A stretch of 64,000 bases of DNA, from NCBI RefSeq assembly GCF_030012215.1, contig NZ_JASCXX010000027.1:1-64000 (forward strand). Reading direction: 5' to 3'. The stretch's first letter is position 1. Each line of letters begins with the position of its first letter. Positions 25,483 through 54,319 of the stretch are shown here, piece after piece. Under the pieces are notes generated by a model. The model was not told where the DNA came from. It was given only the letters and a program-made list of their open reading frames with translations, and ran no database searches. The stretch comes from Anaerobaca lacustris (GTDB taxonomy: Bacteria; Planctomycetota; Phycisphaerae; Sedimentisphaerales; Anaerobacaceae). The position numbers and the translations under genes are program-made.

Positions 25483-25566
25483 GCCGGAGTGGCGGAACTG
25501 GCAGACGCGCGGGATTCAAAATCCCGTCCTGGCAACAGGGTGAGGGTTCGAGTCCCTCCTCCGGCA
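25483..25566 (+). tRNA. tRNA-Leu (CAA)
   Basis: The 84-nt type II tRNA has an acceptor stem GCCGGAG/CTCCGGC with discriminator A, anticodon stem CGGGA/TCCCG with loop TTCAAAA giving anticodon CAA, a long variable arm (TCCTGGCAACAGGGTGA region), and the T-arm GGGTTCGAGTCCC. The 3' CCA is not encoded. Confidence 0.95.
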
Positions 25567-51213: not shown

Positions 51214-52359
51214 TCAGGAGGCAGCAGTCGCGGGGCAGCGGACGCGGAAGGTGGTGCCGAGGTCGGCTGAACTGGTGAACGAGACGCTGCCCTTGAGGTA
51301 GCGCTCGGTCAGCAGCCGGACGCTATACGTGCCCAGACCCCGCCCAAGACCCTTGGTCGAGAATGACCGCTGGAAGACCTGCAATTGGACCTCACGCGGC
51401 ATGAAGCCGGCGTTGTGAACCCAGAACTCCGCCGTCCCACCGTCGGCGGTGCAGCCAACCGTAACGGTCTGGCCCTCGCGGCAAGCCTCGAGCGCGTTCT
51501 TGATCAGATTGCACACGACACGCAATAGAAGGACGCGGTCGCTCACGACCGTTGCGTCCTGCGCCCGCTCGTCGAGGCGAAGCAGACGGCCCTGGGCCAC
51601 GGGATGGCTGCGATAAAGATCGACGGCCTCCTTCAGCAGGGCCAGCGTGCCGACCTCGGCCGGCGCAAGGACCAGTTCGCCGCTTTCGGCTCGAAGCAAC
51701 GTGCGTTGGGCCCCGATCTCTTCGTTCAGTTCCCGGCACAGGCGACGAATATCGTCGAGGTGCCGGCCCCGCTCCTGGGGTCCGGCTTCGTCGAGAAAGC
51801 CGATGCACCAGGACAGGCCGCACGCGACGTTGTGGATATCGTGCAGAAAGATGCGTTCCAGGGCCTGCCGGCGCTTCTCGTGGCTGATGTCCAGGGCCGC
51901 AAAGACCGAGAACGACTCGCCCCCAACCTCCACCGGGCTCGCCCAGACCCGCAGGTCGAGGGCCTCGCTGCTCTCGCCACGAAGGATGCGACACTCCCGG
52001 ACCTCCGCCTGCCCCTGCTGGCTGGCCAGGATGGCCCCGACGGCGCCACACGTGCTGCAGAACTCCGTAGTCCCACAGCCGCCGGGGTCTTTCGAGGCAT
52101 GGATGCAGCCCAGGGCCTCGCCCGGACGAAGTCCGTAGATTTGATCTCTCCGCTTGCCTGGATAGGCTAAGTCCATGAAGCGATCGTTGGCGAAGACGAT
52201 CTGACGCTGGGCATTGAGCACGACCAGCGCGCAAGGCACGACCTCAGGCAGGATGCGCAGCAGCATCCGCTCGCTGAACAGGCGAGACTGCCGCCGAACT
52301 TCTCCGGCAGCGGCACGCTCTACCAAGGCGGCTCTCGTGGGGTCGGGCTTCAATTCCAT
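51214..52359 (-). CDS. PAS-domain sensor histidine kinase with a four-cysteine PAS insert
   Basis: The 381-aa protein has no membrane segment and so is probably a cytosolic sensor. A PAS domain (about 40-165) contains CIHASKDPGGCGTTEFCSTC, with C85, C95, C101 and C104 in the order C-x9-C-x5-C-x2-C. The transmitter follows: H-box FLHDIHNVACGL with the probable phosphoryl-accepting H173, then the N-box NLIKNALEA (N288) and KGLGRGLGTYS as the G-box. The four cysteines could bind a metal or an iron-sulfur cluster, as the NreB PAS domain does, although the spacing differs. No response regulator gene lies beside it. It is divergent from the PPOX-MarR operon. Confidence 0.8.
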   Translation of the reverse strand: MELKPDPTRAALVERAAAGEVRRQSRLFSERMLLRILPEVVPCALVVLNAQRQIVFANDRFMDLAYPGKRRDQIYGLRPGEALGCIHASKDPGGCGTTEFCSTCGAVGAILASQQGQAEVRECRILRGESSEALDLRVWASPVEVGGESFSVFAALDISHEKRRQALERIFLHDIHNVACGLSWCIGFLDEAGPQERGRHLDDIRRLCRELNEEIGAQRTLLRAESGELVLAPAEVGTLALLKEAVDLYRSHPVAQGRLLRLDERAQDATVVSDRVLLLRVVCNLIKNALEACREGQTVTVGCTADGGTAEFWVHNAGFMPREVQLQVFQRSFSTKGLGRGLGTYSVRLLTERYLKGSVSFTSSADLGTTFRVRCPATAAS

Positions 52360-52619: not shown

Positions 52620-53111
52620 ATGGATCAGTCGCGTATGCAGACTTCCAAGGAGATTCAGGAGGTGTGCCTGCGTCTGATGGCCGCAGCGCCGGTATGTTAT
52701 CTGACGACGCTCGATGTCGACGGATTCCCGATAACGACCGCCATGAACAACCTGCGCTGCGCCAAGGACTTTCCTGCTCTGGCCCCACTGTACGACGAGG
52801 CCGAGAATGACTTCCTTGTCTACATCACCACCAACAAGCCGTCGGCCAAGATGGCTCGCCTGCGGGCGAATCCGAAGGTCTCCGTCTACTTCTGTGAGCC
52901 TGGGCAGTTCATCGGGTTCACGTTGAGCGGCGAGATCGAAATCGTCACCGATCAAGCTCGCAAGGACCGCGTCTGGCAGGAGGGCTGGACGATGTATTAT
53001 CCCGATGACCCTCACGGTTCCGAATACGACATTCTCCGACTCGCCCCGAAACTCGTCGGGGGCTGGTGCCGAAATCAGCCGTTCGAGATTCGGATCGCAA
53101 AGCCATCGTAG
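52620..53111 (+). CDS. pyridoxamine 5'-phosphate oxidase-family (flavin split-barrel) protein
   Basis: This 163-aa protein has the split-barrel features VCYLTTLDVDGFPITTAMNNLR, LVYITTNKPSAKMARLRANPKVSVYFCEPG and FTLSGEIEIVTD, as in the FMN- or F420-binding PPOX superfamily. Members bind a flavin and reduce various substrates or remove stress molecules. It is the first gene of a five-gene unit with a MarR-type regulator, and such pairings are common for stress-responsive enzymes. The ATG at 52620 follows GGGAGAAGCACG; the earlier in-frame starts would place coding sequence over the promoter. Confidence 0.85.
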   Translation: MDQSRMQTSKEIQEVCLRLMAAAPVCYLTTLDVDGFPITTAMNNLRCAKDFPALAPLYDEAENDFLVYITTNKPSAKMARLRANPKVSVYFCEPGQFIGFTLSGEIEIVTDQARKDRVWQEGWTMYYPDDPHGSEYDILRLAPKLVGGWCRNQPFEIRIAKPS

Positions 53112-53142
53112 CTTCAAAGAGATCACAGGGAAAGGAGAGACG

Positions 53143-53580
53143 ATGACTGTGAAATGCCTTTGGGCATGCCTGCTGAGCACCTTGATCGTGGTGGACACGC
53201 GAGGGCACGGCCGATCCACCCTCGGCGAACAGGCGATGACTTACCCCCTGCTCGCTGACGACATGGCCAGACTGCTGGATGAGCTTGGCACAGGCCCAGT
53301 CACCGTTGTGGGCCATAGCGATGGAGGGGTGATCGGCTACATTCTTGCGGCCAAATACCCGGAGAAGGTTCGCGCCCTCGTCGCCAACGGCGCCAATTTC
53401 CGCAAGGCCGGACGCGGAGGACTGACGCCCCAGATCAATGAATGGATCAAAACCCTTACGCCCGTGGCAATCGAGCAATGGGGCGACATCCGCCGGCGGT
53501 ACGAGGGCCTCAACCCCGAGATCGAGGCATTCGCCCCCATCCTCCTGCGATTTCTGAACCGGGTCCATGACACTCGATAG
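53143..53580 (+). pseudogene. alpha/beta hydrolase with missing N-terminal core, likely degraded
   Basis: The 145-aa product begins with a signal-like MTVKCLWACLLSTL that runs straight into VVDTRGHGRST, which normally lies about 60 residues after the signal, past the HGGG oxyanion strand. The nucleophile elbow GHSDGG is intact, but the chain stops soon after ALVANGANF and the expected catalytic Asp and His part is gone or replaced. An internal deletion plus a short C-terminus is the simplest reading, so it is unlikely to be an active enzyme. The ribosome site AAAGGAGAGACG is good. It follows the PPOX gene in the same operon. Confidence 0.65.
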
Positions 53581-53840: not shown

Positions 53841-54319
53841 GCGTGTGTGGCAGCATGAAACAGCAGCGACAGGCGGGGTTTCTGATGGCGAAGATTCGCC
53901 AGGTGGGCGAGCGCCTCTTCCTGCGCCGGCTCAAGGAGGCGGGCATCGAGATCAACCCGGCCCAGGGGCGGATCATGTTCGCGCTCTGGCAGAAGGATGG
54001 CGTCTCCATCCAGGAGCTGGTCAGGAAGACGCAGTTGGGCAAGTCGACGCTGACCAGTATGCTGGATCGGCTCGAAGCGATGGGCTACCTGCGCCGGCAA
54101 CGATCCGACGAGGACCGGCGGCAGATCCTGATCTACCGAACCGAAAAGGATCGGGCCACCGAGACGCAGTACGTGCAGCTCTCCGAGCAGATGACCGAAA
54201 TCTGGTACCGAGGCTTCACCGACGCCGAAGCGGATCGATTCGAGGCATGTTTGCAGCGAATCCTGGACAACCTGACGGAGTACGAAAGAGGCGAAGAGGC
54301 GGGAGGTCGCCGTGAGTGA
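53837..54319 (+). CDS. MarR-family transcriptional regulator
   Basis: The 160-aa protein has the MarR winged helix-turn-helix: VSIQELVRKTQLGKSTLTSMLDRLEAMGYLRRQRSDEDRRQI (about residues 55-95), where the wing carries the typical DRRQI motif. N- and C-terminal helices form the dimer interface. It starts within the stop codon of the preceding gene (ATGA), so the two are coupled, and it overlaps the next gene by 8 bp. It may control its own operon through a site near the 52503 promoter. Confidence 0.9.
   Translation: MSVCGSMKQQRQAGFLMAKIRQVGERLFLRRLKEAGIEINPAQGRIMFALWQKDGVSIQELVRKTQLGKSTLTSMLDRLEAMGYLRRQRSDEDRRQILIYRTEKDRATETQYVQLSEQMTEIWYRGFTDAEADRFEACLQRILDNLTEYERGEEAGGRRE

Follow-up and report, generated by a model that had tools for sequence, protein, structure and literature searches.

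The window, a stretch of 64,000 nucleotides from Anaerobaca lacustris (the first 64,000 bases of the 100-kb contig NZ_JASCXX010000027.1, in a genome of 5.7 Mb), carries a gene for a soluble histidine kinase in which a PAS domain with a loop of four cysteines precedes the kinase module (Table 1). The open reading frame can be regarded as a real coding sequence, because its differences from two orthologues are concentrated at the third codon position: 13, 16 and 63 differences at positions 1, 2 and 3 against a 93% identical orthologue, and 44, 39 and 158 against an 83% identical one. The nearest named relative is found in the Phycisphaerales MAG LVBB01000057 (locus L059), where the PAS domain is 97% identical. 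A hydrophobicity scan with 19-residue segments revealed no membrane helix in the kinase. The peak segment (mean 1.77, starting at residue 32) spans the helix at the start of the PAS domain and strand A-beta, which bears out the sequence-only reading of a soluble kinase without a membrane segment. The neighbouring gene, which encodes a pyridoxamine-phosphate-oxidase-like (PPOX) protein, is divergent, with 260 bp between the two starts. An open reading frame for an alpha/beta-hydrolase (53005-53580) lies between the PPOX gene and a MarR gene (53879-54319); it apparently lacks its N-terminal part, the Pfam match starting at profile position 30 of 245. The sole Rfam match in the window at the gathering score is a tRNA gene on the forward strand (25483-25566, RF00005, 57.2 bits).

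Table 1. Features of the kinase and its divergent neighbour, in window coordinates.
Feature	Position	Strand	Description and basis
PAS histidine kinase gene	51214..52359	-	ATG start, 381 aa, soluble; ORF and codon-position bias
HATPase_c catalytic ATP-binding domain	51226..51669	-	approximately residues 231-378; Pfam 4.6e-13
DHp helices	51685..51885	-	residues 159-225; model and alignment
Phosphoacceptor H173	51841-51843	-	within FLHDIHN
PAS domain	51889..52266	-	approximately residues 32-157; AlphaFold models and structure match
PAS elements before the cysteine loop			A-beta 44-48, B-beta 54-57, C-alpha 59-65, D-alpha 79-82
PAS elements after the cysteine loop			F-alpha 105-114, G-beta 119-127, H-beta 133-145, I-beta 148-157
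Four-cysteine loop	52045..52113	-	residues 83-105; C85, C95, C101, C104; spacing x9/x5/x2
C85 codon	52105-52107	-	
C95 codon	52075-52077	-	
C101 codon	52057-52059	-	
C104 codon	52048-52050	-	
C123 codon	51991-51993	-	fifth near-invariant cysteine, 77/81; strand G-beta (119-127)
PPOX (pyridoxamine-phosphate-oxidase-like) gene	52620..53111	+	divergent neighbour, outside the sensor; PNPOx_N 1e-15

The output module is that of a histidine kinase. Its ATPase domain is of the GHKL type, and N288 and E291 within it are invariant in the alignment. Pfam HisKA gave no match on the kinase; a DHp domain with a phosphoacceptor histidine is nevertheless present, as H173 lies in an HDxxN motif whose H, D and N are each found in 80 of 81 aligned proteins, and the model of residues 157-378 resembles HK853 (6rgy_B; Z 23.6, rmsd 2.7 Å, 221 aligned residues). 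A conserved link, D157-I-S-x-E-K-R-R (157-164), joins the PAS domain to the DHp helix.

The PAS domain of the kinase falls below the Pfam threshold (PAS_4, 14.1 bits against a cut-off of 23.1). AlphaFold gave a mean pLDDT of 88.1 and a pTM of 0.73 for the whole kinase (81 sequences), and values of 88.4 and 0.83 for the PAS domain alone (72 sequences). The best structural match of the latter model in VIA-align is PpSB1-LOV (7r4s; Z 13.4, rmsd 2.4 Å, 122 aligned residues). According to these models, the sensor domain of the kinase is a PAS fold. The predicted fold is shared with LOV, NifL-FAD and FixL/DosP heme PAS domains (Z up to 13.4), whose cofactors sit in the E-alpha/F-alpha region; however, identity in the listed matches is 10-23%, and the cysteine loop replaces the E-alpha region. 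The loop sits between D-alpha and F-alpha in the AlphaFold model and is among the least certain stretches of the model of the PAS domain (mean pLDDT 73-75). At the corresponding place, other PAS domains have E-alpha and make contact with heme or flavin, and the loop is modelled as occupying this usual cofactor region. As for the cysteine loop in solved relatives, the five PDB sequence alignments shown among the best matches reach only the PAS core. Four relatives (L017, L018, L022 and L025) have long N-termini, in which Pfam found no domain ahead of the PAS and which may be mere open frame.

The sequence around the four cysteines is RPGEALGCIHASKDPGGCGTTEFCSTCGA. The pattern C-x9-C-x5-C-x2-C, claimed for C85, C95, C101 and C104 inside 52006-52116, was verified in exact position and spacing. 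Alignment A1 had been trimmed around the cysteine motif, so that invariance of the motif in A1 is no evidence. A pattern-guided search for relatives over species genomes gave 182 confirmed relatives, from which the best 80 were kept. These come from planctomycetes, Desulfobacterota-type bacteria, Chloroflexi, Sumerlaeota, Acidobacteria, Ignavibacteria, Bacteroidetes, Kapabacteria, KSB1, Elusimicrobia, Verrucomicrobia, Kiritimatiellota, Eremiobacterota, a Desulforamulus and a Rhodospirillales MAG. The four cysteines are present in all 80, the invariance of C85 being partly built in, as it was included in the search pattern. The x5/x2 spacing is likewise found in all 80 of these best relatives, while the first gap varies from 8 to 11 residues (9-5-2 in 72, 8-5-2 in 6, 10-5-2 in 1 and 11-5-2 in 1). 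In the alignment of 81 proteins, each of the four cysteines is kept in every row. Among the other nine cysteines of the kinase, C123 is the best preserved, followed by C303 (53/81), and the remaining seven occur in 3 to 11 of the 81 proteins. R78, G80 and G96 are also invariant, and G80, G94, G96, T97 and G105, which surround the cysteines, occur in 77 to 81 of 81.

Within the genus, a match was found in five of five other genomes sampled: two full-length proteins (93% and 83%), a 97% fragment, a 65% partial match and a C-terminal fragment. The motif is kept in all four of these that include the PAS domain. In another set of matches, L024 begins downstream of the motif and its frame contains a stop; a second G243 copy was left out of that set. 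A search for plasmid relatives gave no match at 1e-15. The sequence-only reading had named a lack of conservation in close homologues as grounds for giving up its proposal of a redox, iron-sulfur or zinc sensor. That objection falls away, because the four cysteines are conserved far beyond close homologues (80 of 80 loci and 81 of 81 rows), and a cofactor- or redox-sensing role of the four-cysteine PAS is the best reading.

A search independent of the cysteines used the kinase part (residues 156-381) as the query against 195 genomes of the class of Trichlorobacter thiogenes, the source of L137, and 96 of them contained a match at 1e-25 or better. Ninety of the 125 matches listed were read, namely the 30 best loci and the 60 weakest of those left; the 31 middle matches, three second copies and the match of the centre genome itself were left out. 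The strict motif is present in 79 of the 90 proteins thus picked by the kinase domain alone, and L222 has all four cysteines with a one-residue insertion. Two further proteins (L181 and L214) are truncated frames. In L223, L232 and L237, which have no PAS, the same kinase domain stands behind a hydrophobic membrane-type N-terminus, which is a sensor exchange on the same kinase domain. Five proteins from four genomes (L224, L228, L239, L254 and L261) lack C95 and carry a cysteine four residues beyond C123, on the neighbouring strand. Fewer than four PAS cysteines were found in none of the 85 proteins with a readable PAS. As judged from these sequences, the joint conservation of the cysteines is more than chance.

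The exchange of C95 was followed in a pooled set of 195 PAS domains. It comprises 166 rows, obtained by pooling the kinase-only set with alignment A4 after the two truncated and three PAS-less proteins had been dropped, and 29 PAS domains found in the Trichlorobacter phylum with L254 as the query. C85, C101 and C104 are present in all 195 and C95 in 190. A cysteine at position 127, in strand G-beta, occurs in all five sequences without C95, compared with 6 of the 190 that have it (Fisher p 2e-7, a value that ignores the kinship of the five). Because these five sequences are related, they represent one or a few events rather than five. On a beta strand, residues 123 and 127 point to the same face; C123 itself had been missed in the sequence-only reading. 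In this exchange, the loop ligand C95 may have been traded for one on G-beta (127), as a common metal site would permit.

The four-cysteine PAS is combined with several outputs. The genome of the window contains a second carrier, a multi-PAS HisKA kinase with the C-x9-C-x5-C-x2-C pattern (L002/L140, contig C35), and in L037 the domain is located on a sigma-54 activator. A further 22 proteins were read, consisting of 20 regions from the Trichlorobacter phylum together with L296 and L297. All 22 keep the four cysteines, with a first gap of 8 or 9 and the others at x5 and x2. The outputs are sigma-54 activators (L342 and L343 by Pfam, L344 by eye), HisKA kinases (L341, L347), a SpoIIE phosphatase (L346) and HDxxN kinases (L296 and L297, by eye). 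The remaining 14 are open frames of 194 to 368 aa (L328-L340, L345), in which the four-cysteine PAS is followed by a C-terminal ICxxC-K...HGxCPxC-like stretch. Pfam gave no match on this stretch in the three frames scanned; it may form another Cys4 site alongside that of the PAS. Other cysteine-rich PAS loops also occur. One Planctomycetota family (L161-L165) has the loop CG-x-I-F-x-C-H-T-S-T-G-x-C...C-P-G with a different spacing, and a third cysteine-rich PAS of the window's genome (L005/L141, contig C28) has a rearranged cysteine loop, SCTLCGTGPQCCHNMTEDVPC.

The distribution of the domain over phyla is uneven. At 1e-12 or better, a 72-row PAS profile matched 86 of 395 genomes of the Trichlorobacter phylum, compared with 3 of 398 genomes of the phylum of the Rhodospirillales MAG, that MAG included. 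An 18-row profile at 1e-6 or better matched 25 of 199 genomes of the window's phylum, some of them with other cysteine loops. This distribution appears to fit an anaerobic role, which it supports and does not prove, because phylum is a proxy for lifestyle and the profiles contain Desulfobacterota-type rows.

Given the joint conservation of the four cysteines across many phyla, the PAS domain very probably contains a metal or iron-sulfur cofactor for sensing redox state or oxygen. More specifically, the protein is rather likely to be a cytosolic two-component sensor kinase with a cysteine-ligated iron-sulfur cluster in its PAS domain. In such a mechanism, an oxygen- or redox-labile cluster would be bound by C85, C95, C101 and C104, with C123 beside them, at the site that heme or flavin occupies in other PAS domains. 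If the cluster were lost, oxidized or otherwise altered, F-alpha and the beta sheet would shift. This movement would be passed through the D157-I-S-x-E-K-R-R link to the DHp helix and alter the phosphorylation of H173 and, in turn, that of an unlinked response regulator. The cofactor, the cluster type ([4Fe-4S] or [2Fe-2S]), the signal, the direction of the response and the partner are putative. C95-x5-C101-x2-C104 has what is presumably the spacing of the adrenodoxin-type [2Fe-2S] loop, and therefore [2Fe-2S] is as open as [4Fe-4S].

Among the closest known systems is NreB, with cysteines spaced C-x2-C-x11-C-x2-C, unlike the x9/x5/x2 found here in 72 of 80 relatives; it had rightly been chosen as a comparison with a different spacing. 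According to the available parts of PMC4601167, the PAS domain of NreB from Staphylococcus carnosus binds an O2-labile [4Fe-4S] cluster that is disassembled by O2, and the kinase is active without O2. The likeness lies in a soluble kinase, an N-terminal PAS and four PAS cysteines (PMC4601167, same parts), whereas the cluster is demonstrated in NreB only. By analogy, the present kinase might also be active without oxygen, although this is a guess. AirS (YhcS) is likewise a kinase with a cysteine-ligated cluster, there [2Fe-2S] and here putative, and senses redox state or NO. However, its C-x7-C-x-C-x17-C pattern is located in the N-terminal region (available parts of PMC4601167). The sensor-kinase review PMC8534201, in the parts available, names NreB for a PAS-bound cluster. 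In the available parts of the PAS survey PMC10468136, Fe-S PAS domains are mentioned only through the NreB paper and a Cys motif that nine members of a single cluster have. No Pfam or NCBIfam model specific to the four-cysteine PAS was matched, and no publication on this motif was found in the open-access literature, subscription papers being mostly outside coverage. PAS-bound cysteine cofactor sensing is thus already known from NreB, and the widespread x9/x5/x2 variant, with its putative cofactor, appears to be new. Of the proposed new spacing class, the spacing itself stands; the kinase is not a single odd protein and belongs to a widespread family with several outputs.

The main rival to an iron-sulfur cluster, and an unlikely one, is zinc: the four cysteines would bind it as a structural or regulatory ion, and the PAS would sense zinc or something else. 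Zinc ligands with a structural role would show the same conservation as those of a cluster. Four cysteines are enough for zinc and the C101-x2-C104 pair is zinc-like, but it is the only CxxC pair in the loop, whereas two are usual in Cys4 zinc sites. In favour of zinc, the PAS of short relatives is followed by another CxxC/CPxC module; that the domain is concentrated in one phylum rich in anaerobes is more in keeping with an oxygen-labile cofactor. A precedent is the regulatory zinc site of WalK, located, like the putative metal site here, in the cytosolic PAS of a kinase; compared by description, however, its ligands are surface His/Asp/His/Glu, while the candidate ligands here are cysteines (PMC6624279, available parts). 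Less probable still is a thiol switch that acts directly and needs no cofactor (disulfide, persulfide or nitrosothiol). Five conserved cysteines lie near each other in the sequence, and ArcB offers a PAS-linked thiol precedent (PMC4601167, available parts), yet two cysteines suffice for a switch and four are jointly invariant. The glycines and the threonine around them are conserved as well, and the loss of C95 accompanies the gain of another cysteine, as in a ligand set. Another cofactor, either a thiolate-ligated heme held by C85-x-H87 or a signal in the form of a heavy metal or metalloid, is very improbable: H87 is found in 66 of 81 proteins, and heme and flavin PAS domains are among the structural neighbours of the model, but other residues, N, Y and R among them, often stand in place of H87, and heme alone leaves four invariant cysteines unexplained.

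The genomic surroundings of the kinase are heterogeneous. Control of the divergent PPOX gene, whose operon had been suggested as the target, is scarcely credible: the divergent pair is kept in L040/L059 (PPOX gene, 63% identical) and in L060 two ORFs separate the kinase from PPOX by position (73% identical), all within the same genus, but the gene is absent at L061, despite a kinase of 83% identity, and at all remoter loci compared, and Pfam found no response regulator in the five neighbours scanned. As a conserved partner of the kinase, PPOX is thus ruled out beyond the genus. Neighbour clustering of the 80 loci gave one 15-locus cluster with mixed positions and otherwise clusters of at most three loci, so that a conserved operon partner was rejected too. 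Among 61 close same-strand neighbours around these loci, Response_reg occurs in three, and no iron-sulfur or respiratory theme was found. Because its neighbours show few Response_reg domains and no theme, the kinase is apparently an orphan in the majority of genomes. A hint of the missing partner is given by L296, from a genome of the Rhodospirillales MAG's phylum, in which HisKA-HATPase-REC is followed in frame by a four-cysteine PAS kinase.

Beyond the single kinase, the chances are about even that a large unnamed family exists, with a Cys4 Fe-S PAS of the pattern C-x8..11-C-x5-C-x2-C, spread over many mostly anaerobic phyla with at least five outputs. It would serve as a general cytosolic oxygen or redox sensor of strict anaerobes and include a small branch in which the ligand has moved from C95 to position 127. 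If this is true, the family would be an oxygen or redox sensor distinct from the FNR, NreB and heme types. Redox sensing is poorly known in strict anaerobes and in environmental bacteria without well-studied oxygen regulators. A single small PAS with a fixed set of cysteines and many outputs lends itself to expression and assay, and its spectrum alone would provide an annotation for hundreds of kinases and activators.
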